Positions 9,565-28,207 of a stretch of 64,000 bases of DNA are shown in pieces. The notes under the pieces were generated by a model that searched no databases, was not told the DNA's origin, and saw nothing but the letters and a program-made list of their open reading frames with translations. Origin of the DNA: a virus; IMG/VR virus record IMGVR_UViG_3300009408_000001, positions 62,001 through 126,000 of that record. One strand, written 5' to 3'. A program made the translations under genes and the position numbers. Position 1 is the first letter of the stretch. Every line of letters begins with the position of its first letter.

Positions 9565-9569
9565 GGGAC

Positions 9570-9612
9570 TATATTACCAATGTGAGCATAGATACCACGC
9601 ACTTAAGCGTGG
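9570..9612 (+). promoter_or_regulatory. Possible early-type promoter plus hairpin, antisense to next gene
   Basis: An exact TATATTAC box (9570-9577) is followed by a perfect hairpin CCACGC / GCGTGG (9595-9612), the same order as the early promoters. Here it sits between convergent genes and would read antisense through 9619-9996. The hairpin alone also explains itself as a terminator between convergent genes, so the promoter reading is weak. Confidence 0.3.
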
Positions 9613-9618
9613 CATTGT

Positions 9619-9996
9619 TTATGGACTCATCTTCTTCTCAACAAACTCTTCAAAGGTTACTGAGGATACTTCCGTGGATAACTCCCCCTCTATTGGTTCG
9701 AAGGCATCCAGTGCTGACGCGTCAATTCGTTCACCCTCTACTACGTTTGGACCCGGTGGTACCATCCCTGGAGAAGTGGCCTTGGATACCATAAGTAACA
9801 GCGCACCTGCCAGTTCTGTTTTAGCCTTTACACTGTCTCCGTCTACGTTTATTCGGAGTTGTGCGGTAGAGGTTTGTGACATGCTTGACAGGAGCATAAT
9901 CCGTGTTCTCGGGTCAAGGTCATCAGCAGCAAGCGCCAGTCGTTCTCTTTGAACGTAATCTAACATTGTTTGCGGGTCTGTTTTTACCGTACTCAT
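9619..9996 (-). CDS. Small conserved hypothetical protein
   Basis: 125 residues, ATG preceded by CTGGAGAACACCA. Soluble, acidic in its C-terminal half, with a Pro/Gly turn (SPGMVPPGPN) near the middle. It is a single minus-strand gene between two plus-strand operons, divergent from the gene at 10027 with only 30 bases between the starts. No family recognised. Confidence 0.55.
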   Translation of the reverse strand: MSTVKTDPQTMLDYVQRERLALAADDLDPRTRIMLLSSMSQTSTAQLRINVDGDSVKAKTELAGALLLMVSKATSPGMVPPGPNVVEGERIDASALDAFEPIEGELSTEVSSVTFEEFVEKKMSP

Positions 9997-10026
9997 TGGT
10001 GTTCTCCAGATATAAGGGACCAGGAT

Positions 10027-10545
10027 ATGTTTGGTTTTTTACTGCGTATGGTCCATGTAATCAAGGTAGATTACTACACGTTTACACTACATACGTATCC
10101 AAAGAATATATACTCCCCCGGGCGTACCCGGGTGGAGATGCAATTATGCAAGCTCATCCTAAGTCGTCGAAACGATACGGTTCACCCGTTACACGGGGAA
10201 TACATCACCTGTACAGCCATAAGTCTACCCGGGTATAGGAAGGCACTGGCTAACAACCTAATCGCCTTACAGGGTAATCGTACGAGACTTGGAACAGATG
10301 CCACCTACATGTCCACCTTTCCAGTAAAGCGAAGCCTGGGAGAGTGGTTATGGCCAACACGACGGGACAACAACTACACCTTATCCACCGTAATACACGA
10401 CATACATGCTAGCCTGACGGTCATCATGTCCACGATAGAAAAGGAGGAGGAAGCTCTCACTAGAAAACAACTGGAAACATGGTGTACCGACCTCACTGTA
10501 ATTAACAGTGAGTTAACCCGGGTACTGATTACAGTACCCAATTAA
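10027..10545 (+). CDS. Conserved hypothetical protein
   Basis: 172 residues. ATG 10027 is preferred over an upstream ATG at 9970 that would overlap the divergent gene; AAGGGACCAGGAT lies just upstream. The N terminus MFGFLLRMVHVIKVDYYTF is moderately hydrophobic, and the C-terminal third is helical with an acidic EKEEE segment. Followed after 18 bases by the next gene with its own AGGAG site. Confidence 0.5.
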   Translation: MFGFLLRMVHVIKVDYYTFTLHTYPKNIYSPGRTRVEMQLCKLILSRRNDTVHPLHGEYITCTAISLPGYRKALANNLIALQGNRTRLGTDATYMSTFPVKRSLGEWLWPTRRDNNYTLSTVIHDIHASLTVIMSTIEKEEEALTRKQLETWCTDLTVINSELTRVLITVPN

Positions 10546-10563
10546 TTCCCAGGAGAACTCTCT

Positions 10564-11235
10564 GTGGCGAATAGACGAGGTGTATCAAAAATACACCAGA
10601 TGATTGGCGATATACAGTCTGGGCGACAACCCAGACCATCTTCTATACTCCTTAGCCTTGTGTGTAAGAGTTTCTTTTCACTGGAAGTGAATGGTCCAAA
10701 GTGGGAGAAACTGGTTTCACTCTGGCAAGGAGCTAACTCAAAGGTACTAGGAAAGAAAGCCGCTACCTCCTTAAAGGGGAACCTTGAACAGGCAATTACA
10801 CGCGGCGGCATGTCCTGGTCCATATGGTATCGCTTTATACAAACCATGAACGCGGAGCACCGGTTCAAACGCATCAGGTTTACAGTGACATTCACTGACC
10901 GACAGGATAACGACATTTCAGTATGGACCGACCTAGTAGATAGGGAAGTCGGACTGGGAGACGTAGGTTTGTCAGAAGGAACACTTAATCCAGATGTTAA
11001 GGTACTTAACCCTGGGACCACGGTTGTCCCTGGGACGGTATATTTCGTGACTGACTTTAAGGACTCGAAACTTAATGGCCTTAGTCTGAAGTATACGGGT
11101 AACCACCCGGTAGAAGTACTGGACGGTGACCTTACTGGATTATCTCGGGTAGGCAGTATAATCATGACTGCATCTGGGAATATCGACAATAACTGGAGTG
11201 TTGAAAAGAATGCAGATGGAGTCGACAATGAATAA
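10564..11235 (+). CDS. Conserved hypothetical protein
   Basis: 223 residues, GTG start with AGGAGAA seven bases upstream. The first 100 residues are basic and helical; residues 100-215 look beta-rich with many Thr, Val and Asp residues. The stop overlaps the start of the macro-domain gene by eight bases, so the two are co-translated. No family recognised. Confidence 0.55.
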   Translation: MANRRGVSKIHQMIGDIQSGRQPRPSSILLSLVCKSFFSLEVNGPKWEKLVSLWQGANSKVLGKKAATSLKGNLEQAITRGGMSWSIWYRFIQTMNAEHRFKRIRFTVTFTDRQDNDISVWTDLVDREVGLGDVGLSEGTLNPDVKVLNPGTTVVPGTVYFVTDFKDSKLNGLSLKYTGNHPVEVLDGDLTGLSRVGSIIMTASGNIDNNWSVEKNADGVDNE

Positions 11236-11680
11236 GGACACCCGTGGGATCATTACTGCGGTTGCGTCAGGTGACTACGATTATGTCTTACACGGGTGTA
11301 ACTGTTTTAACCGATTGGGTCCAGTCGTGGCTAAGTTACTGGCCGATGAATACCCAGAAGTAAAGCGAGCAGACCAGGCAACTGTCTACGGTGATCGGAA
11401 TAAGTTGGGAACCGTATCGTGGGCTAAGGTTGATAACGGGACGGTAATTGTGAACGTGTACTTGCAATACCGGTACGGTCCAGCCAGACAACATCACTTA
11501 GATTACGTTGCCCTACGACGAGCACTCCTATACTTGACAATGGTGTATCCGGACGTCCTAAGTAGCAAAGTAGCATTCCCTAGGATCGGAACGGGAAACG
11601 CCGGTGGTAGGTGGGGGAAGGTTAGGAACATCCTTACTGAATTACTCCCTACATCGGAGCTTACACTTATAACCACGTGA
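11228..11680 (+). CDS. Macro-domain (ADP-ribose binding) protein
   Basis: 150 residues from ATG 11228 (GGAGTCGACA upstream). It shows the macro-domain signatures: a central strand with HGCNCFNRLGPVVAKLL, and near residues 117-127 the phosphate loop FPRIGTGNAGG followed by a helix. It is close to the small Appr-1''-phosphatase type found in several phages. Such domains bind ADP-ribose and may hydrolyse ADP-ribose phosphate or remove ADP-ribosyl groups. In a phage this could handle tRNA-splicing-type by-products or counter host NAD/ADP-ribose defence, but activity cannot be read from sequence. Ends at a terminator. Confidence 0.8.
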   Translation: MNKDTRGIITAVASGDYDYVLHGCNCFNRLGPVVAKLLADEYPEVKRADQATVYGDRNKLGTVSWAKVDNGTVIVNVYLQYRYGPARQHHLDYVALRRALLYLTMVYPDVLSSKVAFPRIGTGNAGGRWGKVRNILTELLPTSELTLITT

Positions 11681-11681
11681 T

Positions 11682-11714
11682 AAAGGAACGCCCTTAGGGG
11701 TGTTTCTTTTTTTG
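11682..11714 (+). terminator. Rho-independent terminator
   Basis: Stem AACGCCC / GGGGTGTT (one G-T pair), extendable by AAAG / CTTT, with loop TTA and a T tract CTTTTTTT. It closes the operon ending with the macro-domain gene. Confidence 0.8.
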
Positions 11715-11727
11715 GAGTATTCCAGAA

Positions 11728-12696
11728 ATGGCAGCAGAACTCAAGGACTCGGTTTTTACCTCCGGGCCAAACGAAGCACTGGACACGGTGGATGTATACT
11801 CACCAGAAGGACTACTAACCTTAAATAACCTCCTCGGAATACTAGGAGCGGGTGGTGCTACTGATAAGTCATTTGACTACCTGTCCAAGCTACCAGAAGG
11901 AGTGGGATTATCGTTTCCAGTTGGTGACTTACTTGACATGGGGATCTCACCCAATCAGTTAAGGGCACTGTTTCCAAAGGGAGTTCCCACAGGGATAGAC
12001 TTACTCCAGTATTTACGGGATTATCCTGGGCTAGACATGACTGGCTTCCGTGGGTCACTTGCCGCTATTGCTGACCTATATTCACGGGTGGACTTAGATA
12101 ACCTAACCTTAATTGAGTTCGAGCGTCTGGTTTTCTCCGGCATAGAGGGGTCTCACTGGGGACCAGGTGGCAATTACTACCCCGGGATAGAGGTTGCTAG
12201 GCTAGTAGGTCGATTGTCGGAGTTACCTCCTGTCGATGTCATTGTGGCAGTCAGGGAGATCCTCTCTCTTAACCCGGAGGTATCAGTGGCAATGGCTGAC
12301 CACATCCAGGTACTTCTTGCGGCAGTTGGAAACGTGGCTGGTGCTGCTGCTGTTAACGCAAGTGGATTGGGTTCTGGCTCCACACTTGTTGCCAGAATGA
12401 CTGTGGAAAGAGCGTTGGCATCGGTAGCCCACCATGGGCGTACCCCCTCTAAATTGGAGGCAGTGTCCTTTGTTGACTTACTCATCTCGATATTGGCCAC
12501 GTGGGGGTGGGTCATGCGCGGCGGTGTCCTTATTTCTGACCTCACCATTTATGGGTATGCTTCACGCGATGCACTTTACATGATGTTACTCGATCCAAGG
12601 GTAGCCGGTGCAGCGGACATCTGTACCCGCATCAGTGTGGAGAGACATTACGTTCGTGACGTGGTTAACCGTTCCTATCAGTACCTATCCGTATGA
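11728..12696 (+). CDS. Probable virion structural protein
   Basis: 322 residues, ATG preceded by TGGAGTATTCCAGAA. Rich in Leu, Gly and Val with amphipathic helices and a more hydrophobic helix (about 253-270, SFVDLLISILATWGWVM) that may be buried rather than spanning. It stands alone between two terminators, as single structural genes often do here. No family recognised. Confidence 0.5.
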   Translation: MAAELKDSVFTSGPNEALDTVDVYSPEGLLTLNNLLGILGAGGATDKSFDYLSKLPEGVGLSFPVGDLLDMGISPNQLRALFPKGVPTGIDLLQYLRDYPGLDMTGFRGSLAAIADLYSRVDLDNLTLIEFERLVFSGIEGSHWGPGGNYYPGIEVARLVGRLSELPPVDVIVAVREILSLNPEVSVAMADHIQVLLAAVGNVAGAAAVNASGLGSGSTLVARMTVERALASVAHHGRTPSKLEAVSFVDLLISILATWGWVMRGGVLISDLTIYGYASRDALYMMLLDPRVAGAADICTRISVERHYVRDVVNRSYQYLSV

Positions 12697-12707
12697 CAAC
12701 ATAGTTA

Positions 12708-12735
12708 CCCCTCCCTTTTTTGGGAGGGGCTTTAT
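12708..12735. terminator. Bidirectional hairpin terminator
   Basis: Perfect stem CCCCTCCC / GGGAGGGG with a T6 loop, followed by CTTTATG. It lies between the convergent genes ending at 12696 and 12737. Confidence 0.75.
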
Positions 12736-12736
12736 G

Positions 12737-14785
12737 CTACCTGTGCACCGATTTGAACAGTCCAGCGATCGTTCTTCCTGGACCGATACCTGAGAACTGC
12801 GCCGCATGGTGAGTTGGTGACATCCATGCTTCAAAACTGGCCAACTGCTGTCGCCATGCTAACTTTAACTTGGCGGTTCCATAGTACTGGTCGTACAGTG
12901 ACAACCCACTCAGACACGCAAGGTATCGTGTGAAAGCGGTTTCTTCATCGAATGCACTCATGGATAAGAAATCCAATGGTCCCGAAAGGGGAGACAGCGG
13001 CATGTGTGCGAGCTTATCTAGGTTCAGTACTGAAATCGTGATATCGATTCGTGCAGGTATGTTATCTACGGTCCACCCAATTCCACCACCGCCTGAAGTC
13101 ACCGTTACGGAATCAATGATTCCCTTCTCAATGTTGTTCTTACCGTGGTGAAACATACGACATAACAAAGGACTCGTATAAGAATGTTTACCCGTGCTCA
13201 GTGGCATAACTCCCGCAAGAATTGCAGCAAGGGGCACCAGGCGAGTTAACATAACCGAGGTTTTATTCCCATATGGACCGCCTAGTGAGATGGTAAATGA
13301 AGAAGTGGGTAACTGGGTAGTAGACGCTTCCCAGAACTCTGGCATATCTACCATTGCGCTTCCGCCTAAGCCAGCTAAGTTTCCCATGCCAATCGAAGCA
13401 AGGCCACCTTCCATCAAGTTTTTTACAGCGGTGAATGCACTTTCCGCCATGCTAGCTATGGCACCATCCCCAACGTTACCATGTGCGAAGTCAAAGAACT
13501 TACTCCTTGCACCAGAACTGGTGGAGTTAAATGATCCTTCTAGGTCGGACTTTCTAGTGGAGTTAGTCACAGACATCTGTGTGGTGGGTATGTGATCTAC
13601 GTAGAACCCTACCCACATGGAACCATCTTCTAGTTCGGCGAGTAGACTACCGTCTCTGGCTTCCTGATGTACGTCTCCTACCTCTTTGGTAGCGTACGAG
13701 ATTGCGGCGTCCTTATCCCCTGCAATTACGTCTGCGTCCAATTCTGCTCTGGTTAATCCCACACCACGCCCAACACTGCTGTTCTTATAGTAGTTGTTCA
13801 TGTACTTTAAGTAGGTAGGTTGGTTTGCATCCCCCGCATTGGCTTGCATGTAGGTTGCGATACCCGGGGGGTCCATGCGTTCCCGAATGTACTTACGAAT
13901 CGCATCATCATAGGATAACTTATCGTTGTATACCGATGCGTCTGCAATTGACTTAAGTGTTCGGTGGTGGTGATTAGCCAGTCGTTGTGCTCTAGTGGAG
14001 ACCGCGAAGATATCAATCCCCCCATTCTTGTTACGAAAGATGTCTGGCATGAGTCGATTCATGACGGAGACGTCGTCCGTGGACATAGCGTCTCCATATG
14101 AAGCGGGTAAACCTGCAGCAGAAGCCGCTTCCTTAACGGTCTCGATCGACTTGTTTAAGAAGTTAAGCGGAACAGGGGGTTCTACGATTCCCAGGTTAAC
14201 CCCAAGCTTGTTTACAATTGTGGACACAGAGCTCCAGTACAGTGCCATGGTTTGTTTTATGTAGTAGAACGATGAGTTGGCACTGCCCAGTAACATTCCG
14301 ACTACGTTGGTAACCATGTTATTAAGGCCAGCAACCGCCTGCAATGGCAACGTAAGTAAGAACCCTATCGCATACCCTGCTTCAAAGAAGAACCCTCTAG
14401 AGTCACCTGTGTTAGCCAGGCGGGCCATCTGTGTATCATAGTACTTTGAAAAGAATCCAGTTAGACTGTTGTGTTTAGGCAGTCCAAACTGGAAGTACAC
14501 GATTTCAGCGTTGTCGTCAATCACACTGCTGTAATATTCCCCCTGTCCGTCAGACATACCAACCGGTCCGAATCCGGGCATACGTGGGTCAGCAAAGGGC
14601 GTAAACTGTGGTTTGGGGTTCAGCCCAAGGTTACCACCCAGTGATGAATCTGTGTATTTCAAATCTGCACTGGTGTAGTTCCGGTTGGCTTTAGCTCTAC
14701 CCCCCATGACTTTACCAGGGATGAGGTAAACTTGCTGTATCCAATCGTGGTCAGATCGTATCTTTAGAAAATCTGCTGCGGCCAT
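12737..14785 (-). CDS. Tail/baseplate structural protein (putative)
   Basis: 682 residues, ATG preceded by AGGAGAAGATGACAC. Two Gly/Ala/Leu-rich hydrophobic stretches (about residues 130-170) could be membrane-active or buried. The C-terminal 230 residues run ISLGGPYGNKTS...TSPLLCRMFHHGKNNIEKGIIDS...GWTVDNIP..IDITISVLNLDKL. This pattern recalls baseplate/tube-connector proteins of contractile phages (SP-F...G-I-S...W...P..V.V), seen by eye only. It lies just downstream of the giant tail protein on the same strand with a terminator between. Expected in the tail or baseplate. Confidence 0.5.
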   Translation of the reverse strand: MAAADFLKIRSDHDWIQQVYLIPGKVMGGRAKANRNYTSADLKYTDSSLGGNLGLNPKPQFTPFADPRMPGFGPVGMSDGQGEYYSSVIDDNAEIVYFQFGLPKHNSLTGFFSKYYDTQMARLANTGDSRGFFFEAGYAIGFLLTLPLQAVAGLNNMVTNVVGMLLGSANSSFYYIKQTMALYWSSVSTIVNKLGVNLGIVEPPVPLNFLNKSIETVKEAASAAGLPASYGDAMSTDDVSVMNRLMPDIFRNKNGGIDIFAVSTRAQRLANHHHRTLKSIADASVYNDKLSYDDAIRKYIRERMDPPGIATYMQANAGDANQPTYLKYMNNYYKNSSVGRGVGLTRAELDADVIAGDKDAAISYATKEVGDVHQEARDGSLLAELEDGSMWVGFYVDHIPTTQMSVTNSTRKSDLEGSFNSTSSGARSKFFDFAHGNVGDGAIASMAESAFTAVKNLMEGGLASIGMGNLAGLGGSAMVDMPEFWEASTTQLPTSSFTISLGGPYGNKTSVMLTRLVPLAAILAGVMPLSTGKHSYTSPLLCRMFHHGKNNIEKGIIDSVTVTSGGGGIGWTVDNIPARIDITISVLNLDKLAHMPLSPLSGPLDFLSMSAFDEETAFTRYLACLSGLSLYDQYYGTAKLKLAWRQQLASFEAWMSPTHHAAQFSGIGPGRTIAGLFKSVHR

Positions 14786-14852: not shown

Positions 14853-17800
14853 CTATGACTTAAAGTCCACAACCGATTTAAACACCGTAGTGTCTGTGTT
14901 CGGCAGCGCTTTCTTTATGCTGTCATTGCTGTTACCAGAGGAATCACCCTTCACAACGATCGTAGTATCTTTACTGGCAATAGTCTCCAGTTTTTCGATC
15001 ATACGCTCTTGGTTGTTGATCATAGTATTTCTCTGTTCTTCTGCGGCGATACTGAGTGCGATCTGCTGTTTCATCGCACCAACCGTATCATCCCGAGTTC
15101 TAGACGCTAGGTCCATGTGGCGAAGTGCCAACCCATCGGATGCACTTAAGCGTTTCCGGGGAGTTAAACTGACTTCAGCTTCTGGACGACGACGAGTTAC
15201 AGGTACCGGTGTAAATTTAACTGACTCTTGTCTACGGGATGCACGGTACGCCATTTCCTTAGCGTCTTGTTCATCCCGCATCGTTTGCAGTTTACTGGCA
15301 ACCGTAATTCCTTCAGGGGGCTTGGACACAGGCTCCTTAACCGTTACCCTTTCTTCTGGAGGAAGTTGCTTAGCATTTACCCTAGCCACCATGGCGTCAT
15401 GTTCTTCCGATGCAAGCTCATTCCGCGTGGCAGGTGGGGTTGGTTGGTCATCACTAATGAACGTCATGGCCTCCCTAGCAGACAGTTTTGAAAACTGTCT
15501 CATTGTTAGCGGGTGTTTCCCGGACCGTTTCCGGATAGAGTTAACCGCTGTCAATGCCCGTTCTAACCTACTACCCTCTACATTCAGATTCCTTTCTAAA
15601 TCCTTAGAGCGATCGTAAGGTAGGGTACTTGTCCTAGGTTTCTCCGTAGGTGGGGGAGTAACCGAGGAACCGTACTTATTCGCCATCATGGTGTTACCCA
15701 TTGATTTTTTCTCTTCCATAAGCGCACCCACTTCAGTGGCGGACATCGATGCAACCTGCATCATTGACATACCGGGTTTCCCCAGATCAGCCAGGGTGTT
15801 TGACACCATGGTGTACTTACGCTGCATCACACCAATCTCAAGTTGAGACAACCCTTCGGTTGCCTTCTCAATCTCGGCAGCGGTAACTTGGTGCCTAAGT
15901 GAAGTAGGTCGCGTCACAGACGGTGTAACCCGTGTCGTAGGTTGCACAGGAGTAACCCCCGGCATTGTAGGTGCCGTGCCGTACTTATTCGCCATCATGG
16001 TGTTACCTAGGGCCTTTTTCTCTGCAACAAGTGCAGACACGGCCTCCGGTTTCATATCCATGACTTCTTGCATCGTAATCCCAGGTCGACCCAGGTCGGA
16101 TAACATGGCAGATACCATGGTGTACTTACGCTGCATCACGCCAATCTCAACCGGTGTCTTTCCTTCTGACATGGTTTCAATTTCGTCTTTTGTAACGACA
16201 TGTCGTTTTGCAACCACCTTTTCAGGAACAGGAGCAGTAGGAGAACTTCCTTTATCCGATGCAGGGCTGGCAGAATCAGTCAACTTCTGTAGCTTAGCAC
16301 TGGGTGGGGATTGCTTTGCAGCAAGGGTGTCTACCCCTTCGAGGCCATCCGACTGCCCCTCTACCTTACTCCCCTTGGCGATTTCCTCAGCGGTCTTTAT
16401 CTCATTAACCGCTGCTGTTTTGTCCACGGATCTAAAACCGGAAACCGGATCAGTAGTGGGCCCCCACTGTTTAAGGTTCTTCCGCCATTCAAAATGGAGG
16501 TGGTTACCGTCACTAAGTCCTGTGTTTCCAACGGTACCGAGCAACTGGCCCTGGAGGACGGTATCCCCTATATGTAACCCACGTGCGCGTGAGTTCATGT
16601 GGGCATACCGGGTAGATGTCCCATCTGCATGCCTCAGGTAAACGACATTGCCATAACTAGGTGAATAATGCGAACGCATGACCCTACCATCCATAGCAGC
16701 GACGACGGGTGTTCCCTTGGGTGCGGCTATATCTATTCCCTTGTGGAAAGACCGTTCCCCCCCAATGGGGTGTTTACGCCAACCGTACGGAGAACTGATT
16801 CTTCCTTCAGCCGGTATCATCATCTTAGACTTGCGTCCTAGGTCATCCCCACCACCGTATATTACAGAGGCACCAACCAATGCACCCGCAACCAAACCGA
16901 TGGCCTTTTTCTTTCCCTTCTTTTCAGTAGGGGGATTAGGGTCCCGTTCGTTTTCCTTCCTGGCTTTCTCTTCGGCATCGGTTCGTTTCTTATCGTTCCT
17001 AGACTTGTTCTTATCCTCACCAGGTAGTCCTGGTACGAAATCGAAGTCATCTAATTCAGAGTCACTCATAAGGGTTTCTAGCATGCGTCTCGTGTAGTCA
17101 AGTACAATGTCTCGCATGCTGTAAACGGGCTTACCATTGAACGGTGTTGCAAGTACCGCGTATGGGTTGAATCCCCGTTTGATGTCCTTCTCAGTTATCT
17201 GAACCCGATTGATGAACATCGCCTGGTCCTTATCGTCCATCTCATCATCGATGTCAAGTATGTCTACCCCATCGTCTAAACGATACGCTGCTTGGATATG
17301 AGTGTAGAATACGGGAATGAACCGTTTCCGGAACCACGTGTTCCACTCACGACCATGTGCGCGATCGTCCAGAAGCCTATTGAACGCTTCATGGTGCTCT
17401 TCATAGAAGTACGCCGGTTCTTCGTTCAGGGTAGGGGACCCGTTCTTATCCAGATCAATCTCTGACCTTACCTGGTCTTCGAGGGCTCGGATTGCGTAGA
17501 TGAAGTCTTCGTCCTTGAGACTCACCCCGTATTGCAAGAACCTAAGCCCTTCGACAGGTTGTACGTCTGAACCATAGGTTAAATGTTTCGTCAGTTTGTA
17601 CGCGCCCCAGGCGGCCACGCCCACAACCGCAAGGACACCCAGTCCCAACATCAGCGTCCCTACACCCAGTGCCGCAGCAGCCGTGGCTGCTGTGGTGGCA
17701 ACGCTAGTGGCAACGCTAGTGGCTGCCACGGTTGCTGCTACCCTTGCTACCGTTTGCATAACTTTACCTCCAACAGCCTTAGCTGTATCGATCACAACAT

Positions 17801-20800
17801 CCTTAGCCTTATTGACCACTCTACCACCAACATCCATAGCTTTATTGACCACTGCATCCTTAGCTCGGTTGGTATATTCACCAGCCTTCCCGGCGGCCCA
17901 TCCTACTGCGCCCCCTACGCTAGGGATGCTACCCAACGTGTTGGCACGTCGTAAGTTGCGTCGGTTTTGTTCATCTTCCTCCTGTTCTTGATCTTGCCAT
18001 GAACCATCCCGGTCACCGTCGCCATCTGCATCATTCGCGTTGGGACCAGCCGTACTCGCTTCTTGCATCTTAACAAGGTCACTCAACAGTTCAGTCTGAG
18101 TGGACATGTCTTCGCGTTCGTCTTCACCTAACTCTTGGTTCTGTTCGATGAGTGACGTTAACTCGCCAATGGTTCCAAGTAACAGGGCGTTTTCCGGACC
18201 ACTGGATACGCCTGGATTAGAACCCGGTCCATCAGTACCAGTCGTAGTAGGAGTCCCCTGCATCTCTTTCAGATTACTCAGGAGGTTCTCCCTGGACTCC
18301 AGTAACTCTACCTCAGAACTGGGGGTGTTGCGTATGAGTTCCTCTAACTCGGCAATAGATGCTCGCAGTTCTGGAGTGTGTGGCTGTGCGGTAGCTGGTT
18401 CTGGGTTAAGTAAGCGATATTCCTCTTCCGTTAAACCAGCATCGTTTGCACCGGAGGTGCCACTGACGTTGATAGATGTAAGTCCGGATAACCTATTCCT
18501 AATGCGGTCCATACGACTTCCACCGGAGAAGTCAGCATTTGGAACAAATGTTCGACCTGCCACGTCCTCTGTTCCAGGTGTAATAATCTCCGGTCCCACA
18601 TTATCTGAAGGAGTAGGAGGAGTATCCACCTGTTCTTCCACAGCTGCAAGTTCAAGTGCGACGATGTCTTCTTCTGTCAACCCAGCCGCATTAGCACTGG
18701 CGGTGTCAAATGAAGTGGCGTCCCTTAACCTACGGCGCAACCGTTCTAACCGGGTAGTAGTGTAATCAGAGTTCGGTTGGAATACCCGTGGTTCATCGAG
18801 TGGTGGTTCCGAAACCTCTTCTATTCCTGGGCTGGTGGAATCCGAAGTGGGTACATCCAATAGTGCCTCCATACCCGGAAACGGTGTGTTAGCTGCCGCT
18901 TCTGCTTCTGCTAGAGCAACACGAAGTTCCTCAGGCATACCGGTTACCGTTTCTGGTGGAGTTGGACCTTCTTCCATCGCCTGCGCTATCAGAAGATCGT
19001 TCCTTTCGGAAACACTGAGTTCCGACGTACCCACTTCCTGGACCATGGTGTCCGGGCTCGGTGGGTTAACGATTCCCTCTTGGGTGGCAGATACCACTAC
19101 AGGTACTTCCGCCCCAGTGGATCCCTCCCTCATCAGCTCTTCCATCTTAGCATCGTTGATCTGAGCTAAGGTAAGCGGAGTATCTGGGGAGTTGGGAGTA
19201 ATTCCCTCCATGAGATCGGATACCGCTTCTGAATCGGCCCGCTGTGGAACACGGGATGGACCGATGACAGGTGCATCGGTACCAGTACTGTTTCCATCCA
19301 TCAGCTCTTCCATCTTAGCATCGTTGATCTGAGCTAAGGTAAGCGGAGTATCTGGCAGTATTTCTGTTGGCGGTTTTCTTTTCTTGGGGATCGTCAATTC
19401 CAAGGCTTCCATCGCCCCAGAATAATCTTCCGCCTTCCATAGGGCAATTGCCTTCTTAAATACGTCGTCCTTAAGATCGACAGTATCATCCCATGTGAGA
19501 GGGGAACTCCCCTTATCAATGCGCATCCTCAGTTGAACCAAGAGTTCACTCTTCAAAGTGGGGTCCACAAGCTCTGATTCTTCCGTAGTGGTTCCCGGTA
19601 GTTGTACCTCCTCGACAGTATCATCGGGTTCCAACGGGTTGTGTTCCTGTAGTGGAACTGGAGCTAACGTACGACCTGGGGTTTCGTCAACCGGTGACTC
19701 TCCCATGAGTCTGGTGATTTCCAAGTCGTTAACCTGTACGGGTGTCATCTCCACCTTAGAGGACACTTCCTGTTTTTCACCCGGTTGAACTAAGGACACG
19801 GGTACCCGATCGGCACTATTCAAACTCGCTGCCATGAGCGATAACATGTCATCATCATGCCTTTGTGCGAGTTCACGAGGAGTCCCCGGTGACTCCTCTT
19901 CCCCACGGTCTGCTGGTGGGGTTTCTACACTAACGGTATCCTTCCCATCTACAACACGGTCCACTTCAGAATGGACCTGGGTTATAGTTGGTACGGAAGG
20001 GATCCCCGTTGGTGCTTCTTCCATCATAGCGGCGATCTTAGCATCGTTGATCTGAGATAAGGTAAGCGGAGCATCTGGTGCCGCACCTTCCACCTGTACT
20101 ACAGTGGGTTTCACAGGGATGTGTTCCACTGGGACAGGTGTTTCTTCCGTGGTGACCGATGGAGATGCAACCACAGTCGGTTGGGAAACCGGTGCAGGTG
20201 GAGCCTCTTCAGGTTCATCTTCCATCATAGCGGCGATCTTAGCATCGTTGATCTGAGATAAGGTAAGTGTCGTCCCAGGTGTGATGTCGTCCTGTGCGAG
20301 TACTGTGGTCGGTTTAACACTGTCTGTTGTCAGGGTGGTTGGACTAGGTGCGATTGAAAGCGCATCCTTCACTGTTTCCGGTACCACAGGGGCAACGGGG
20401 GTAGTCGGGATAACCACTGGAGAACTACCCGGCAATGGAGCAGGAGTTGCAGGTGCTGGAGTAACCGCCTGTTTTACGCCTTCTGGTTTTGACTCCGTTC
20501 CGGTTAACATTTCCATTGCCAGTGAAACATTCCCTTCCTTGAGTGCAATGGATGCCAGTTCTACAGTGTCACTTACATCGGCGGTGGCTGTCTTAACCAC
20601 CTTACCAATACTGCTGTCTGCAACCTTACCTTTGAGCTCCTTGGCTTTCTTAACCACGGTGCTTTCCGAAATGGTCTTTCCAGCAGTCTCCAGGGCAGAA
20701 CCTACCTCAGAACCCACTTTACTTTCCTTAGCAGACTTAGCAGCGTACTCTGCTGCTTCCTTCATGAACTCTTTAGCAAGCGCATGATCTCCCTCGGCCA

Positions 20801-23800
20801 TGGCTTCCCTAGCCATCTCCAGTGAAGCTGCGGTGTTTTCCTTAACATCCTGTATCCGAATGTAAGTATCTGAGGCCATAATGGTTTCGAGTGTCTCTTC
20901 CTTGAGTTTCTTTGTGTGGGTCACAATGTCCTTAACCGTTTCGGATTCCATGAGTTCTTCTGCTTTAGAGGCTGCGGTCTTAGCCACCTCCTTCGCTTTC
21001 TGACCCAGTGCTGAATCGGACACATCCGCAGCCAAGTCCGATGCCACGTCCACTGCTGAACCCACTGCCTTACCAACCGCAGAGTTACCAACCGCTTTAC
21101 CCACGTCAGATTCGGCTATTTCCTGGCCAACTAACTTAGCCCCATCTGACAAGATGGTACCCACTTCAGCGTAGTTCCCTTTACGAGCCGAGTCGATTGC
21201 CCACTCTGCACTGGTTCCCGCTACTTTCGCAATGTTCGTCGCACGTTTAACCGCGTCAGAGTTTGCGACATCATCCAGTACTTCTGTGGCGTTGGCGACA
21301 ACCGTACTGTGCTTTATGTCTTCCTTAAGTTGCGTCGCTTTCTTTGCGGTGGCCTTGTACGCATCCGTACTCTTAACCGTCTTCTCTACTTGTGCGTACA
21401 CCTTAGCCAGTTCAGACTTGGTCACCTCATCGGTAGCATCCGCCATACCCTGTTTAAGGATAGTCAGTGCTTCTTCCTTGTTACCCTTCTTATACGCCTC
21501 GTAACCCCACTCTAAACTGGTCTTACCAATCTCCGAGATGTTCTTAACACGGGTTACGAAATCAGAACTGGTAATGGTATCAGAAAGGTCTGTCGCTGCG
21601 GTTTTGACTTTCTTAACCGCTTTACTTTCCGATACCTCGGTTGCAAGCTTACCAGTAGCCTTGTACGCTTTGGTCTTGGCTACCTTAGTTTTAACATCCT
21701 TTAAGACACGGGCCAGTTCAGACTTGGTCACATCATCTCTAGCATCCTCCATACCCCGTTTAAGGATCTCGAGTGCTTCATCGGTATTCCCTTTCTTGTA
21801 TGCCTCGTAACCCCACTCTAAACTGGTCCTACCAGTCTCAGAGATGTTCTTAACACGGGTTACGAAATCAGAACTGGTAATGGTACTTACCGTGTCTTTT
21901 GCCATCTGCTTTGCCGACTGTGCTACCTTGCTGTCGGCTACAGCGGTGGCAGTAGAGGATGCGGACTTATACGCCTTACTTGACTTGATGTCCTTTTCCA
22001 GTTCCTTAACTGCTTTAGCGAGTTCAGACTTGGTAACCTGATCAGACGCATCAGACATACCACGTTTAAGGATAGTCAATGCTTCTTCTTTGTTACCAGC
22101 TTCCATTGCCTCATATGCCCAGCCTACCGTAGTCATCCCGATCTCAGATAGGTTAGATACCCTGGTCATCGCGTCTTTCAACGTGGTGCTTTCTACAACA
22201 CTGTCTTTCAAGGTAGTTGCTTTCTCTACTAAGGAGTTAGCAATCTTACTTTCCGTGACGGTGTTCTTCGCAGAATTAAAGAGAGACCCGAGTTTATCAA
22301 TCGCGTTCTCTTTAGGCGCACCCGGTGTAGCAGGGATTACCATTACAGCTGGAGCAGGTGGTGCATCGGGGTCTACCGGCATTGGTTTCCCTTCTGCATC
22401 CAACTGAGGTGCCGCAGGGGCGGCCATTGTCATACCCGCAGGTAAGGTTAAACTCACCGTCGGAGCACTCGTAGAGAACTCCATGATCCGTGTAAGGATC
22501 TTTTTAAGCACTCCAGTCTGTTCATCGATGTGCGGAACAGCGTCGGCTGACATGTAACCGGTACCCACAGAGTCCTTCGACTTCAGCCCCCGGAGTCCTG
22601 CGGCCCCAGCCCCCCTTGTTGCTGAGAAAATACCACGGTTCAGTTTCACAGTGGTTTTGGCCAGCCCCTTGGCAATCGTACTTCCCATGGAAAAGGCCTT
22701 ACCGATCGCTTTCCCGGAGTACCCGGTTAATGCGCGTAGTAATCCACCAGAACCCAACGTTACACCGTTCTTATCAACCAGTCCTTGTTTGATATCGTCA
22801 ACCGTTAAAACGATGTTCTCACCTTCATAGACGTCGCCGTTTATGTCAGTGATTGCTTTTATAGGGCGACCGTCTTTGTCAGTGTACCTACCTGCCAACA
22901 TAAGACGCGACAATAGCCGAGGTGTGCTTTCACCATCAACATACACGTCACGCCGTTTCAGAGATCGACTGGCCGTGTTAAGCAGCCACTTACCAGCACC
23001 ATACGCGCCTTTAATGATTGCTGTCTGTACGCCAAAGACACCACTGACTGCACGGGTAACCGGAGAGAGAAGATCAGAGATAGACTTTCCTCCCTTCTCT
23101 ACCAAACCAGTTTCGATATCGTCTGCTGTTAGGATCACGTTTCCAGTTGCGTTTACAACCGGACCCTTGATGTCCTTAAGTGACTTAATCGGATCACCTG
23201 ACTCTTCATCGAAGTACTTACCCGATTTCATGCCGCGTGCGGTTAAGACCGGTTCAGAATCACCCTTAATGTAAATGTCATCAGTGAAGTAACTGGTAAC
23301 GCCACGGGTTACGGTTTTAACACCCCCTCCGAGGACACTGGCTGCTGCTCCTGCAACTTTACCCATTCCTTTGTAGTAACTACCGAGTAACCCCGTTAAT
23401 GTCCCTACGCCGGATTTCATGGTTCCAAAAACACCAGACGCTAAAGCACCTAATTTAACGCCTCCGCTACCACCTCCAGAAACAACACCTTCCGCAATGG
23501 ACTGAAGGAGTAGGTGTGTGGTTCGTGAGTTGCCATCGATGGATTCCACCACCGAACGGAACCCCGGATCCAAGTCGGAGTATCCTTCGAAAATATCCGC
23601 TGTACTGAAACCACTCGACAGGTGTTCCTTGGCTTTCTCTAAGGCAGTTAACTCTTCCGCTGACTTAGGTGACTCGTCTTCGACTTCCCTAGGTATGGGT
23701 GCTGTTTCAAGTAATGCAGCGGCCCGCTCCAATAGGTCTGAGGTATTGGTTAGTGACGCTGTGGTTGATTCTACCACAACCGCCTCGGTTTCCTCCACTG

Positions 23801-26525
23801 CACTCGGAGTATCCCCGTACTGTAACGCTATCTCTCTGTCATTTCTTTCAGCGGGGGATAACCCTCGTCTGATTCTACCCCATACTCCTTCTCCCTGTTC
23901 AGGTGTTGGTGGAACTGGATCCCCGGATGGAGAAGGGGGTTGAGATGACTCGCTCGCATCACCAGATGGAGAAGTTGGGGTTGGGGTTGGTGGTACCTCT
24001 GCTGGAGTTGGAGTTGGTGACGAAGGATTGGGTTCAGACCTACCGGATAACCAGTTGTCTATTCTACCGAATAGACCGGGTGGAGGTGGGGGTTCCACGT
24101 CGTCCGCATCTGATTCAGAACGGTGTGCATCTGGATCCTCTTCTGTTTCTTCGGCACGTCTCGCACCACCGAAGAAACCAAACAACCGACTGACTACACT
24201 TGTGTCTTCCTCGACTGCGGCTTCTGGTGGAGGTTGTGGAAGTATACGACCATCGTCCTCAATGTGAGCGTACCCTTCCGGACGTGGACCACGGAATCTA
24301 GCACGGTCACGGATATCCCGTTCACCTGCAATGGCACCCATGTGATTCGAAGCGTCTGTCCCTTCTGCGATGTTGGAACCCAGTCTCATGTCGTTCCATG
24401 CTTCGGCGGATATTGCAGAAGACCCGTCCTCCTTATAGGTCAGAAGGCCAAGTCGTTCGAGTGCTTCCCTTTGTCCGTTGTAATGCAGCGATGATGTAAC
24501 CTTATCTGCATCCAGGCTACGGGCCCGCATCCGTTTAAACTTCTTCTGGATCTCCTGCATGTGGCGTCCGTCACGATCGGCGTTAACCGCGTTTAACTTA
24601 CCACTGATCTCCTCACCAATCTCGGCACCGTACTTCTTGGTATAGAAGTCTTCATCGGAAAAGTCACTCACCGCAAACCCAGTACGTTTATCACGGACCA
24701 ACATCATCCGTTCTGCCAGTGCTTCGCGGGCTTCATCAGACAACGTACGGTCTTTATCAAGTTCGTCTACGGCATCGTAGGCTGCACGTTTCTTATGGAC
24801 AACGTCTTCATCAGATACCATCTTCTGCGCGAGAAGGTTGTCATTCTCCTCGGTGGTGATAAATGCTTCTTTCTGAGTAGAATAGACGATTCGATCACCC
24901 GACTCCCCGGCGATCTTAGCAACGGTTTGCAAGATACGGGAGAGGTACCCTGGAATGATCTCGTTGATACTGCGATGGGTTATCGTGTCGAATGACGTAG
25001 CGGTGGATAGGTTGTCTTCCAACTTACCTCCCATTGATAGGTCATCGGAATACGACGGGGCAACTTCCTTAAGGAACTCACCAGCCGCGTTTACCATCTT
25101 TCCAAATGCACCGGGTGTAGAAACTTCCACATCGTCATCATCACCGGGATTGGATGCCAGGTCGCGGGCTTTAGCTCGGGCAGATACTCCGTCGGTTACG
25201 CGTTTGCCAACCCGGGTATCCCCCATTCCAAATGCGTCTACGAACCAGGATATTGCTTTGTCCTTTTTCTTTCCGACATTGGAAGCCATGTTATTTGCAC
25301 CGGCCACCAAGTCCTGGTAGCCCTGCATTTCGGTAACGTCGCCACCCTCTTCTACAAAGGCTTGAAGTGCCGCTGCTTTGTTACCACTGTGGTATCGCAA
25401 CAGGTCATTTAACCTCCCGACGGATTTATTCTTAGCAAAGAACGAACCGAGTTTACGGGCGGCTCTCTCACCGAGTTTACCAGACGCGTATTCTACGGCT
25501 GCACCACCTGCCATTTGACCTGCGCTTGGTCCTCCATCATCATCCCCACTCATTTGTTCAGCCATGTCTGCCGCGCCCTCTATCCCGGAGGATAAAGTTT
25601 CGGCAAAGTCCATGACAACATCTTTAACATTGTTTTTCAGTTCGGAGGTGTACTTAGATGTAAACCGACCAATGCCTTCACTCATATTACCCAACATGCC
25701 ATCTTGCATAATCTCGCCAAGTCGCTCAGTGGCCTTATACTTAACGGTATCAGGTAATCCTGTGTTGTGCTGTATGTTCTGAAGGTGACTAATGTTGGTT
25801 TCGAAGAAGGGCTTTGACACCCCGAGTAAATCCCGCAGTGTGAAGTAAGTGCGATGTTGTAACTCTAATGACTTTCTTTGGTAGTTAACAAGGATGCTAT
25901 CCTGGTACCCTACCAACCTACCAATAGAAACCGCGATCTCTTTATCAACCGCGATTGTCTGGGTATGTCTCAGGTCAGAAGAGTGCTCGGAGGCCTCATC
26001 CCGTTTAACGGTATAATCATCCCTGACGGCATCAACCTCCCTTTCCTGAGTAAAGATCTCAGAAAGGGATGCTTGGATTGCGGATTCATCTGGGTCAACG
26101 TAATCTCTGGAGTAAGAGGTATCTTCTGCAAAGTCCTTTATCCTAGAGGCGATGCCTTCTGGTAGGATCTTCTCGATTACAGACTCTGTACTCCGTAGTG
26201 CGGACTTCATCGAGTCAACAGCGGGCTCTAAAGCCTTTTCGGCGGAATCGTATATCTCCTCGCCTGCTGAAGCGATTTCATCTATGTCATCTAGAGCACC
26301 AGCGTATCCTTTAGGGAGTACGTTTTCTCTGATGGCTCGTCCTGCTGCTTGTGCGGAAGAGGCAGACAAGGCTGTCTCTAATGCACCAGCCTTAACTTGT
26401 CCGGCAATGCTTCGGTCTGATTCGGCGGGGCCATCCGAAAGCCCCTCCATATCTGGGCCATCGCCAAAGTCATCGTCCATGTCGCTCATAAACTCATCTG
26501 GATCAAAATCTAGGTCGTCAGACAT
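14853..26525 (-). CDS. Giant tape-measure-like tail protein with M23 peptidase domain
   Basis: 3890 residues in one uninterrupted frame. Domain order: acidic helical N terminus; helical region to about 750; Pro-rich linker (760-900); two related ~105-residue units near 1075-1290 (xYVxGxSxPxL...VLTxDDIxxGLVxK); degenerate ~102-residue helical repeats (about 1445-2010); a Pro/Thr-rich region with repeated short motifs (about 2085-2520); a strongly hydrophobic Ala/Gly segment (2920-2975); an M23/LytM peptidase domain (3230-3365) with all zinc residues (His3261 and Asp3265 in HKGID, HLH at 3342-3344); then two 103-residue repeats (3440-3625) and a coiled-coil end. It lies divergent from the polymerase beta' gene, like phiKZ gp181 and its relatives (from memory). 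It likely sets tail length and opens murein during infection. Confidence 0.85.
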   Translation of the reverse strand: MSDDLDFDPDEFMSDMDDDFGDGPDMEGLSDGPAESDRSIAGQVKAGALETALSASSAQAAGRAIRENVLPKGYAGALDDIDEIASAGEEIYDSAEKALEPAVDSMKSALRSTESVIEKILPEGIASRIKDFAEDTSYSRDYVDPDESAIQASLSEIFTQEREVDAVRDDYTVKRDEASEHSSDLRHTQTIAVDKEIAVSIGRLVGYQDSILVNYQRKSLELQHRTYFTLRDLLGVSKPFFETNISHLQNIQHNTGLPDTVKYKATERLGEIMQDGMLGNMSEGIGRFTSKYTSELKNNVKDVVMDFAETLSSGIEGAADMAEQMSGDDDGGPSAGQMAGGAAVEYASGKLGERAARKLGSFFAKNKSVGRLNDLLRYHSGNKAAALQAFVEEGGDVTEMQGYQDLVAGANNMASNVGKKKDKAISWFVDAFGMGDTRVGKRVTDGVSARAKARDLASNPGDDDDVEVSTPGAFGKMVNAAGEFLKEVAPSYSDDLSMGGKLEDNLSTATSFDTITHRSINEIIPGYLSRILQTVAKIAGESGDRIVYSTQKEAFITTEENDNLLAQKMVSDEDVVHKKRAAYDAVDELDKDRTLSDEAREALAERMMLVRDKRTGFAVSDFSDEDFYTKKYGAEIGEEISGKLNAVNADRDGRHMQEIQKKFKRMRARSLDADKVTSSLHYNGQREALERLGLLTYKEDGSSAISAEAWNDMRLGSNIAEGTDASNHMGAIAGERDIRDRARFRGPRPEGYAHIEDDGRILPQPPPEAAVEEDTSVVSRLFGFFGGARRAEETEEDPDAHRSESDADDVEPPPPPGLFGRIDNWLSGRSEPNPSSPTPTPAEVPPTPTPTSPSGDASESSQPPSPSGDPVPPTPEQGEGVWGRIRRGLSPAERNDREIALQYGDTPSAVEETEAVVVESTTASLTNTSDLLERAAALLETAPIPREVEDESPKSAEELTALEKAKEHLSSGFSTADIFEGYSDLDPGFRSVVESIDGNSRTTHLLLQSIAEGVVSGGGSGGVKLGALASGVFGTMKSGVGTLTGLLGSYYKGMGKVAGAAASVLGGGVKTVTRGVTSYFTDDIYIKGDSEPVLTARGMKSGKYFDEESGDPIKSLKDIKGPVVNATGNVILTADDIETGLVEKGGKSISDLLSPVTRAVSGVFGVQTAIIKGAYGAGKWLLNTASRSLKRRDVYVDGESTPRLLSRLMLAGRYTDKDGRPIKAITDINGDVYEGENIVLTVDDIKQGLVDKNGVTLGSGGLLRALTGYSGKAIGKAFSMGSTIAKGLAKTTVKLNRGIFSATRGAGAAGLRGLKSKDSVGTGYMSADAVPHIDEQTGVLKKILTRIMEFSTSAPTVSLTLPAGMTMAAPAAPQLDAEGKPMPVDPDAPPAPAVMVIPATPGAPKENAIDKLGSLFNSAKNTVTESKIANSLVEKATTLKDSVVESTTLKDAMTRVSNLSEIGMTTVGWAYEAMEAGNKEEALTILKRGMSDASDQVTKSELAKAVKELEKDIKSSKAYKSASSTATAVADSKVAQSAKQMAKDTVSTITSSDFVTRVKNISETGRTSLEWGYEAYKKGNTDEALEILKRGMEDARDDVTKSELARVLKDVKTKVAKTKAYKATGKLATEVSESKAVKKVKTAATDLSDTITSSDFVTRVKNISEIGKTSLEWGYEAYKKGNKEEALTILKQGMADATDEVTKSELAKVYAQVEKTVKSTDAYKATAKKATQLKEDIKHSTVVANATEVLDDVANSDAVKRATNIAKVAGTSAEWAIDSARKGNYAEVGTILSDGAKLVGQEIAESDVGKAVGNSAVGKAVGSAVDVASDLAADVSDSALGQKAKEVAKTAASKAEELMESETVKDIVTHTKKLKEETLETIMASDTYIRIQDVKENTAASLEMAREAMAEGDHALAKEFMKEAAEYAAKSAKESKVGSEVGSALETAGKTISESTVVKKAKELKGKVADSSIGKVVKTATADVSDTVELASIALKEGNVSLAMEMLTGTESKPEGVKQAVTPAPATPAPLPGSSPVVIPTTPVAPVVPETVKDALSIAPSPTTLTTDSVKPTTVLAQDDITPGTTLTLSQINDAKIAAMMEDEPEEAPPAPVSQPTVVASPSVTTEETPVPVEHIPVKPTVVQVEGAAPDAPLTLSQINDAKIAAMMEEAPTGIPSVPTITQVHSEVDRVVDGKDTVSVETPPADRGEEESPGTPRELAQRHDDDMLSLMAASLNSADRVPVSLVQPGEKQEVSSKVEMTPVQVNDLEITRLMGESPVDETPGRTLAPVPLQEHNPLEPDDTVEEVQLPGTTTEESELVDPTLKSELLVQLRMRIDKGSSPLTWDDTVDLKDDVFKKAIALWKAEDYSGAMEALELTIPKKRKPPTEILPDTPLTLAQINDAKMEELMDGNSTGTDAPVIGPSRVPQRADSEAVSDLMEGITPNSPDTPLTLAQINDAKMEELMREGSTGAEVPVVVSATQEGIVNPPSPDTMVQEVGTSELSVSERNDLLIAQAMEEGPTPPETVTGMPEELRVALAEAEAAANTPFPGMEALLDVPTSDSTSPGIEEVSEPPLDEPRVFQPNSDYTTTRLERLRRRLRDATSFDTASANAAGLTEEDIVALELAAVEEQVDTPPTPSDNVGPEIITPGTEDVAGRTFVPNADFSGGSRMDRIRNRLSGLTSINVSGTSGANDAGLTEEEYRLLNPEPATAQPHTPELRASIAELEELIRNTPSSEVELLESRENLLSNLKEMQGTPTTTGTDGPGSNPGVSSGPENALLLGTIGELTSLIEQNQELGEDEREDMSTQTELLSDLVKMQEASTAGPNANDADGDGDRDGSWQDQEQEEDEQNRRNLRRANTLGSIPSVGGAVGWAAGKAGEYTNRAKDAVVNKAMDVGGRVVNKAKDVVIDTAKAVGGKVMQTVARVAATVAATSVATSVATTAATAAAALGVGTLMLGLGVLAVVGVAAWGAYKLTKHLTYGSDVQPVEGLRFLQYGVSLKDEDFIYAIRALEDQVRSEIDLDKNGSPTLNEEPAYFYEEHHEAFNRLLDDRAHGREWNTWFRKRFIPVFYTHIQAAYRLDDGVDILDIDDEMDDKDQAMFINRVQITEKDIKRGFNPYAVLATPFNGKPVYSMRDIVLDYTRRMLETLMSDSELDDFDFVPGLPGEDKNKSRNDKKRTDAEEKARKENERDPNPPTEKKGKKKAIGLVAGALVGASVIYGGGDDLGRKSKMMIPAEGRISSPYGWRKHPIGGERSFHKGIDIAAPKGTPVVAAMDGRVMRSHYSPSYGNVVYLRHADGTSTRYAHMNSRARGLHIGDTVLQGQLLGTVGNTGLSDGNHLHFEWRKNLKQWGPTTDPVSGFRSVDKTAAVNEIKTAEEIAKGSKVEGQSDGLEGVDTLAAKQSPPSAKLQKLTDSASPASDKGSSPTAPVPEKVVAKRHVVTKDEIETMSEGKTPVEIGVMQRKYTMVSAMLSDLGRPGITMQEVMDMKPEAVSALVAEKKALGNTMMANKYGTAPTMPGVTPVQPTTRVTPSVTRPTSLRHQVTAAEIEKATEGLSQLEIGVMQRKYTMVSNTLADLGKPGMSMMQVASMSATEVGALMEEKKSMGNTMMANKYGSSVTPPPTEKPRTSTLPYDRSKDLERNLNVEGSRLERALTAVNSIRKRSGKHPLTMRQFSKLSAREAMTFISDDQPTPPATRNELASEEHDAMVARVNAKQLPPEERVTVKEPVSKPPEGITVASKLQTMRDEQDAKEMAYRASRRQESVKFTPVPVTRRRPEAEVSLTPRKRLSASDGLALRHMDLASRTRDDTVGAMKQQIALSIAAEEQRNTMINNQERMIEKLETIASKDTTIVVKGDSSGNSNDSIKKALPNTDTTVFKSVVDFKS
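15660..16210 (-). repeat. Two tandem ~309-base coding repeats in the giant tail gene
   Basis: Two 103-codon units follow the M23 domain. Shared blocks include IGVMQRKYTMVS (offset exactly 309 bases, 15808 and 16117) and GNTMMANKYG (15672 and 15981). A third, degenerate copy may precede the C terminus (around 15530). The matching DNA shows duplication rather than convergence. Confidence 0.75.
18960..20275 (-). repeat. Repeated short motif LTLxQINDAKIxxLM in disordered region
   Basis: A motif of about 17 residues recurs in a Pro/Ser/Thr-rich stretch. The best copies read TLTLSQINDAKIAAMME, PLTLSQINDAKIAAMMEE, and PLTLAQINDAKMEELM twice. Degenerate copies keep the N-D...I/M...L-M core (VQVNDLEITRLMGE, VSERNDLLIAQAMEE, LAQRHDDDMLSLMAA). 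Two pairs are almost identical at DNA level (19128-19190 with 19296-19355, and 20020-20072 with 20218-20268). Spacing is irregular, which suggests docking sites on a flexible linker. Confidence 0.7.
20500..22190 (-). repeat. Degenerate ~102-residue helical repeats in the giant tail gene
   Basis: At least three clear units of about 306 bases (for example the shared block at 21541 and 21847) plus two degenerate ones. Each has SDFVTRVKNISEIG..SLEW followed by GYEAYKKGN.EEALxILKxGMxDA...TKSELAK. The helix-turn-helix pattern with GN.EEAL is TPR-like. Such repeats probably arose by tandem duplication that lengthened the protein. Confidence 0.75.
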
Positions 26526-26572: not shown

Positions 26573-28207
26573 ATGAAACAGAAAAAACTCCCGTTTAACA
26601 TTTCCATCCTAACCCCAGACCGTAATAGGATTCGGGGTCTTCTTCCTGTACAGGTGTTGGACATGTACGATAACGTGTCCGGAGAATTCCACCCACAGGG
26701 ACTTTACTCTAATGAAATCTTTGGTCGACCTGGTACACCGGAACGAAGTGAACGCCATGGATTCATGAACTTACGTACTACGTTGTTCCATCCTAAGTTG
26801 TACATCGAGTTAACCCGGTTGAAGTCTCTGTACGGGGATATCTTATCCGGGCGTGGCTTTGCGGTATGGGATAAGAAACTAAGGGACTTTGTTAAGTCAG
26901 ACGTGATCAACGGTGAAACGGGGTATGCTTTCTTCATGGAGCACTTCACCGAGATCAAGTTCGTTCGAAACAAATCGCACCAACGTGACCTCCGGGTTGA
27001 CTTAATCGAAAAATTCAGAGCAGATGCGCTATCGGATTATTGGATCATATTACCTGCTGGATTACGGGATGTCCAGTTGGATGAGGAAGGTCGGCCCATC
27101 GAAGTAGACGTTAATAAGTCTTATCGTAAGCTACTGATGTTAGCCAACACGATCTCAGAGGCGTTTGTGGGCAAGTCTATCCCTATCCTAGATAGAACAC
27201 GACACAGTATGCAGATGACACTACAGGACATCTGGGAATACTTCATGCTCCTGTTCTCTGGTAAGAACGGGTTTATGGAAGCTAAGTTCGGGAGTCGTAA
27301 GATCGCAAACGGTACGACCAATGTGATCTCCTCTATGGACGTGGCTCCTGAATCACTGGATGGTCCGTCTGCGAAAGATGCCAGTGCCAGTACGGTTGGC
27401 TTGTTTCAGTATATGAAAATGACGGATGTTATCATGACTGAGTACGCGATGGTTAAGGGAATCGCAAGTTCATTAATTGAAACGGTTAACGCCACCAGCA
27501 AGTTAATTAATCCTAAGACCCTAAAGTTAGAAAGCCATGACACAACCGAGGTAACCCGTGTGAACTGGGGAACGCTCACGGGTAGACAAGGGTTGGTTAA
27601 CCGGTTTAATGACTCTAGGCACCGCCACAGACCGGTTTGGATTGACGGCAAGTACCTAGCCCTGATTTACAGAGACAACCGTTTCTTCAAAGTACTTTAC
27701 GACATTGATGACCTGCCAGAGTACATGGATAGGTCGAAGGTGTCTCCCTTAACCTGGGCAGAGTACTTTTACATCGAAGCCTGGTCATACAACGACCGTG
27801 TCCGGGGTTTCCTTAACAGGTACCCCATTACAGGAAGCGATAGCATCTACCCGTCTACCATTTATGTTAACACCACCGTGGTCACAAACCGCTTACGGGC
27901 GTTAGACGAATCGTGGGTTCCCGAATATGGAGAAGACTCGGAACTTCCAGAGTTTCCCGATACCGCTGGCGCGAGTGCCTTCATTGATACGTCATCTCCA
28001 CATCCGTTAAAACTGTCTGGCCTGGGTGCGGATTTTGATGGAGATCGGGGTAGCACAACAGGTGTTGCCTCCGATGAGTCAATCGCGGAAATAGACGAAC
28101 ATCTGAACAGTCCAGCCACGTACCTTGCACCAGACGGTACATTACGTATGTCATCTGGTACGGATCTGAATGTTTGGATCTTTAACAACTTTACTGGTTA
28201 CCAGTAA
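26573..28207 (+). CDS. RNA polymerase beta' subunit, N-terminal part (virion polymerase type)
   Basis: 544 residues, ATG with AAGGG upstream. Residues 39-78 (QGLYSNEIFGRPGTP...HGFMNLRTTLFHP) match the beta' N-terminal pattern DGLF...IFGP...MGHIEL..PV.H. Residues about 484-493, GADFDGDRG, are the universal catalytic NADFDGDQ loop with all three Asp residues that hold the catalytic magnesium; the flanking Asn and Gln are changed. It ends about 50 residues after this loop, so the bridge helix and trigger loop must be in another protein outside the window (phiKZ gp80-like). Nineteen bases separate it from the beta gene. Confidence 0.85.
   Translation: MKQKKLPFNISILTPDRNRIRGLLPVQVLDMYDNVSGEFHPQGLYSNEIFGRPGTPERSERHGFMNLRTTLFHPKLYIELTRLKSLYGDILSGRGFAVWDKKLRDFVKSDVINGETGYAFFMEHFTEIKFVRNKSHQRDLRVDLIEKFRADALSDYWIILPAGLRDVQLDEEGRPIEVDVNKSYRKLLMLANTISEAFVGKSIPILDRTRHSMQMTLQDIWEYFMLLFSGKNGFMEAKFGSRKIANGTTNVISSMDVAPESLDGPSAKDASASTVGLFQYMKMTDVIMTEYAMVKGIASSLIETVNATSKLINPKTLKLESHDTTEVTRVNWGTLTGRQGLVNRFNDSRHRHRPVWIDGKYLALIYRDNRFFKVLYDIDDLPEYMDRSKVSPLTWAEYFYIEAWSYNDRVRGFLNRYPITGSDSIYPSTIYVNTTVVTNRLRALDESWVPEYGEDSELPEFPDTAGASAFIDTSSPHPLKLSGLGADFDGDRGSTTGVASDESIAEIDEHLNSPATYLAPDGTLRMSSGTDLNVWIFNNFTGYQ

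Follow-up and report, generated by a model that had tools for sequence, protein, structure and literature searches.

The window analysed here is a stretch of 64,000 nucleotides that forms part of a virus record of 197,530 bases, from an uncultured phiKZ-like giant phage. A long open reading frame on its minus strand encloses the interval (18960–20275) in which an earlier note had described a repeated peptide motif. The gene, its neighbours and its internal features are as follows, in coordinates of the window.

12737–14785, minus strand: gp182-like gene, a conserved neighbour (phrog_3181, 3.5e-167; order as in relatives)
14853–26525, minus strand: tape measure-like ORF with a peptidoglycan hydrolase domain, 3890 aa
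16467–16748, minus strand: M23 peptidase domain, aa 3260–3353 (Pfam PF01551 Peptidase_M23, 1e-30; M23 relatives in the PDB)
18891–20498, minus strand: Pro/Ser/Thr-rich insert, predicted to be disordered, with the motif array, aa 2010–2545 (composition; AF2 pLDDT 46.5)
19398–19466, minus strand: short predicted helical hairpin inside the array, aa 2354–2376 (AF2 pLDDT about 82, the best-predicted element of the insert)
20496–22208, minus strand: lineage-specific helical region with six TPR-like hairpins, aa 1440–2010 (TPR_19; AF2 hairpin; DNA repeat family D1)
22626–23279, minus strand: conserved middle block with two repeats, aa 1083–1300 (blastp against family members)
24366–26414, minus strand: N-terminal domain kept across the family, aa 38–720 (blastp against family members)
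26573–28207, plus strand: divergent RNA polymerase beta-subunit piece, a conserved neighbour (phrog_2986, 2.6e-166)

The 3890-aa protein matches phrog_3201 (1.1e-168, PHROGs search). Its first 720 residues matched 207 phage records by tblastn, all at less than 60% identity, and the matches listed for this part are phiKZ-like giant phages. It resembles phiKZ gp181 and SPN3US gp239 in the N-terminal, middle and C-terminal blocks and, like them, carries a hydrolase near the C terminus. Here this is an M23 peptidase domain within the C-terminal half, which is also present in the homologs from MS32 and BONAISHI, whereas phiKZ gp181 has been reported as a virion peptidoglycan hydrolase of a different class, a glycosidase (PMC5380687). 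Eleven relatives share the gene order, with RNA polymerase pieces diverging upstream and a gp182-like gene downstream, and SPN3US_0239 occupies the same position in this order as the present ORF. SPN3US gp239 has been reported to be the tape measure protein and to be lacking from tailless particles (PMC5105663, PMC10052503); what is known is location alone, in the tail, and for this ortholog (PMC5105663, PMC10052503). Given the family match, the gene order and the tail location of gp239, comparison of sequences identifies the 3890-aa protein as a putative tail tape measure protein of the phiKZ gp181/SPN3US gp239 family.

Elsewhere in the window, positions 44350–54849 encode a tail sheath, a phrog_3185 structural protein and the large terminase subunit, an order shared with SPN3US 0255–0260. 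A small ORF at 11198–11680 on the plus strand (GIITAVASGDYDYVLHGCNCFNRLGP) resembles macro (ADP-ribose-binding) domain proteins; in DT01 a NADAR gene lies at a similar distance from the gp181 homolog. Two places hold long stretches of exactly repeated DNA, apparently shared by neighbouring paralogous genes: 42561–43489 of the window and, outside it, G000:C1 174314–178842.

The present protein stands apart from its relatives by its length, 3890 aa against 1750–2880 aa in most of them. About 1670 aa separate its middle and C-terminal blocks, compared with about 235–280 aa in the Vibrio phages MS32 and BONAISHI and in Goslar. Homologs from 88 viral loci and 11 named phages mostly show the full set of three conserved blocks, in a few cases two of them, and none has the array. 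The only relative of similar length, L114 (3747 aa), carries different repeats. In its ORF (1619–12859) these are 'DPHALSDTxxGxxDWAxIRxA' and 'TPAATTAAEAANA', at aa 1076–1200 and 2250–2510. The insert with its hairpins and motif array is thus peculiar to the present protein among the homologs compared, and since relatives keep the flanking blocks and lack the whole insert, the array appears to be lineage-specific and dispensable for the core tail function of the family. The earlier note had proposed to count motif-less homologues with unchanged flanks against the motifs. In form such homologues are what we found, with the blocks kept and the insert missing as a whole; this does not make the motifs inert in this phage.

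The array chain is acidic, with 12% Pro, 17% Ser+Thr and 0.7% aromatic residues. An AF2 prediction for aa 2031–2560, made from the single sequence without an alignment, has a mean pLDDT of 46.5 and a pTM of 0.19. Both composition and prediction agree with the Pro/Ser/Thr-rich disordered setting that had been described, and the single stable domain that would have spoken against docking peptides is not seen; the region is predicted to be a disordered chain. The array matched neither solved structures nor Pfam, and its predicted fold matched none.

The motif can be written L[ST]xx[QE]x[NH]Dxx[IM]xx[LM]M. The protein contains eight copies, all on one strand and in one frame of the same gene; seven of them lie within the interval and start at aa 2087, 2154, 2217, 2260, 2395, 2451 and 2503 (window 20267 down to 18972):

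20220–20267, minus strand: copy a, LTLSQINDAKIAAMME; AF2 helix at aa 2089–2099
20019–20066, minus strand: copy b, LTLSQINDAKIAAMME, DNA identical to copy a; AF2 helix at aa 2156–2168
19830–19877, minus strand: copy c, RELAQRHDDDMLSLMA, diverged, the weakest of the seven; AF2 helix at aa 2216–2236
19701–19748, minus strand: copy d, MTPVQVNDLEITRLMG, diverged; no AF2 helix
19296–19343, minus strand: copy e, LTLAQINDAKMEELMD; AF2 helix at aa 2397–2410
19128–19175, minus strand: copy f, LTLAQINDAKMEELMR, sharing a 57-nt identity with copy e; AF2 helix at aa 2453–2467
18972–19019, minus strand: copy g, LSVSERNDLLIAQAME, diverged; AF2 helix at aa 2505–2518
23814–23861, minus strand: copy h, LSPAERNDREIALQYG, aa 889–904, in Pro-rich linker 1 outside the interval (matrix score; motif HMM, which is circular)

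The earlier count of eight or nine copies in the interval was therefore slightly high, the eighth being copy h in the other Pro-rich linker, whereas the irregular spacing that had been noted is real (43–135 aa from copy to copy) and a regular ruler can be rejected. Two further candidates were discarded. The sequence at aa 2427–2440 (PQRADSEAVSDLMEG) has a matrix score at the level of noise, although AF2 places a helix there, and that at aa 555 in the conserved N domain (FITTEENDNLLAQKM) looks similar and scores 3.0–4.7. Short helices are predicted on six of the seven array copies (a, b, c, e, f and g) and not on d. The motif, with a hydrophobic residue followed by Ser/Thr and, three residues on, by Gln/Glu, has the shape of a helix start (capping box). 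Strong amphipathicity of the motif was looked for and not seen. Because helix stability does not account for N7 and D8, these two positions would be the best candidate contact residues.

The motif array exceeds chance. With a matrix built from the two recent sequence types alone (LTLSQINDAKIAAMM, LTLAQINDAKMEELM), copy d comes 5th, copy g 7th and copy c 12th in the six-frame open sequence of the genome (142,822 residues), and the scores it gives to the four diverged copies were reached by 0 of 2000 linker shuffles. In a leave-one-out comparison copy c was the weakest, being equalled by 18 of 100 whole-protein shuffles. Copy h scores 6.7 with the two-sequence matrix and 17.6 with a five-copy matrix that excludes it (shuffle 99%, 14.4; maximum, 17.0). 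The motif is exclusive to the 3890-aa protein and confined to its Pro-rich linkers: the search of the phage proteome and relatives proposed earlier found nothing above shuffle level in the rest of the 197.5-kb record or in the relatives (88 viral loci and 11 named phages, about 100 homologs). An exact degenerate-DNA search of viral contigs for the motif gave no match, and neither did the array as a query against viral and bacterial genome contigs.

The earlier note had distinguished copies duplicated at the DNA level from others that had diverged with the core kept, and the nucleotide sequences confirm this. Copies a and b are identical over 50 nt and copies e and f over 57 nt, with zero synonymous differences in either pair, and the flanks of both pairs are mostly unalignable. 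This points to recent copying; short-unit copying or gene conversion can explain the identities, which purifying selection on the peptide cannot, and the near-identical pairs add nothing to a case for selection. The four diverged copies are saturated at synonymous sites with the peptide core kept. Identical codons occur in 22 of 63 same-residue pairs, where 24.2 would be expected if codons were chosen independently. At the amino-acid level the identity is 0.33 for the core, compared with 0.10 for the flanks. Conserved positions even use different codon families (AGT and TCC for Ser; CTT, CTC and TTA for Leu). Retention of the core after synonymous saturation, a comparison made within one gene as array orthologs were not found, argues for selection on the peptide or, possibly, for its repeated independent origin.

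These same data bear on a mostly neutral repeat expansion, in which in-frame units would be gained by recombination between short repeats and tolerated by the flexible linkers. Copying of a/b and e/f at the DNA level, between mostly unrelated flanks, is what such a process would produce, and two further repeat families with recent DNA identity, D1 and D3, lie in the same gene; different repeats in the related L114 protein and the missing insert in other relatives would also fit. Neutral units would, however, be expected to lose their core, while the diverged copies have kept it through synonymous saturation, and the motif recurs in a distant second linker. We consider this explanation fairly unlikely for the array as a whole. 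As to D3, it lies in the C-terminal part of the protein (window 15426–16208) and consists of two clear and one diverged 'RKYTMVSxxLxDLGxPGxxM' module. L114 holds modules that resemble D3, the match being weak (E 0.018).

The helical region directly N-terminal to the array might supply a partner within the protein itself. TPR_19 matches aa 1440–2010 at 2.9e-5 and 24.8 bits, just under the Pfam cut-off of 25, and the AF2 hairpin shows a likeness to a peptide-binding TPR, across 38 columns, that is not significant (Foldseek E-values above 1). The hairpin region found no match in other viruses and is specific to the 3890-aa protein. The motif helices might then bind these TPR-like hairpins, within one subunit or between subunits, and so fold or bundle the long insert in the tail tube or release it on ejection; that hairpins and array are adjacent, peculiar to this protein and missing together from relatives would agree with such an arrangement. 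On the other hand, copy h lies 550 aa away, and a pairing of seven hairpins with seven motifs has to be rejected, since the hairpin inside the array is missed by an HMM of the other six. Taken with the marginal TPR score, this leaves docking to the protein's own hairpins an unlikely explanation.

A tape measure protein is expected to exit the tube on ejection. The array could accordingly take on a virion or effector protein, which would enter the host along with the tape measure, or capture a host factor on ejection, and multivalency would suit loading. Space in the tail lumen is limited, however, and no candidate cargo was found, with no other protein of the genome carrying the motif or a matching repeat, so that we regard cargo docking as improbable. 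That the repeated unit acts as DNA, as a recombination or protein-binding site, is barely credible despite the perfect 50- and 57-nt identities, for the diverged copies keep amino acids while their codons differ, and every copy lies within a single gene, on the same strand and in the same frame, the rest of the genome having none.

The reading that we favour, at roughly even chances, is that this lineage has inserted into its tape measure a multivalent array of short helix-forming motifs, the likeliest partner being a phage protein of tail assembly or of the tail lumen. The motif statistics, copy h in the second linker, synonymous saturation with a kept core and the six predicted helices out of seven support a docking array; against it stand copy d, which is not predicted to be helical, the origin of the helix prediction in a single sequence, and the lack of the motif in relatives, hence of cross-species conservation. 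Of the multivalent docking peptides proposed in the earlier note, the predicted disorder, the repeated helix-forming motifs, the constraint on the peptide, the additional copy h and the lack of a single-domain fold all hold up; the partner is putative. That note had looked for a partner packaged in the tail or head, and since the host protein is a putative tail protein, a tape measure, one packaged in the head would be less natural.

In such a docking array each motif peptide would be disordered when free and is predicted to form a helix of three to four turns on binding, with the conserved N, D, I/M and M side chains contacting the partner. The array would offer several sites to one kind of partner, and one tape measure chain could thus hold several partner molecules. 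This partner would most likely be a phage protein that the tape measure encounters while the tail is being built or inside its lumen, for example an assembly chaperone or scaffold. A protein of this kind comes first among the candidates, since repeats in tape measure proteins have been described as anchoring small auxiliary proteins (PMC3271669).

Those repeats, of 11 aa or 11-11-18 aa and marked by Trp/Phe (Belcaid 2011, PMC3271669; TP901-1, PMC5099701), are alike in being repeated short anchors, also proposed as sites for small assembly proteins and shifting in copy number by duplication. The present array differs in its irregular spacing of 43–135 aa, its predicted disordered linker and its far fewer copies; it has neither an 11 nor an 11-11-18 spacing, nor a Trp/Phe marker (0.7% aromatic residues). 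Such repeats may also be tolerable without strict function, as alanine replacement of one tape measure repeat in TP901-1 had little effect (PMC5099701).

The array also resembles another class, its short conserved core being dispersed in a chain predicted to be disordered. Multivalent arrays of short linear motifs have a short conserved core, variable disordered spacers, a capacity to form helices and dispersed copies. The array shares these features and differs in that no orthologous array was found in the relatives and contigs searched; its docking role is putative. One could go further and picture the tape measure as a multivalent carrier, whose eight peptides dock a single dedicated phage protein, carried in the tail and delivered along with it, or dock its own TPR-like hairpins and fold the tape in the tube; we think this doubtful.

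It is understood for few phages how the tape measure protein stays stretched out and covered while the tail is being built, and the phiKZ-like giants are the least understood. A sharply defined repeated peptide provides a direct handle on this process, a 16-residue bait with which the partner could be fished out. A partner from the lumen or from assembly would put a name to one component of the tail-building process in giant phages; a cargo would demonstrate that tails can be loaded.
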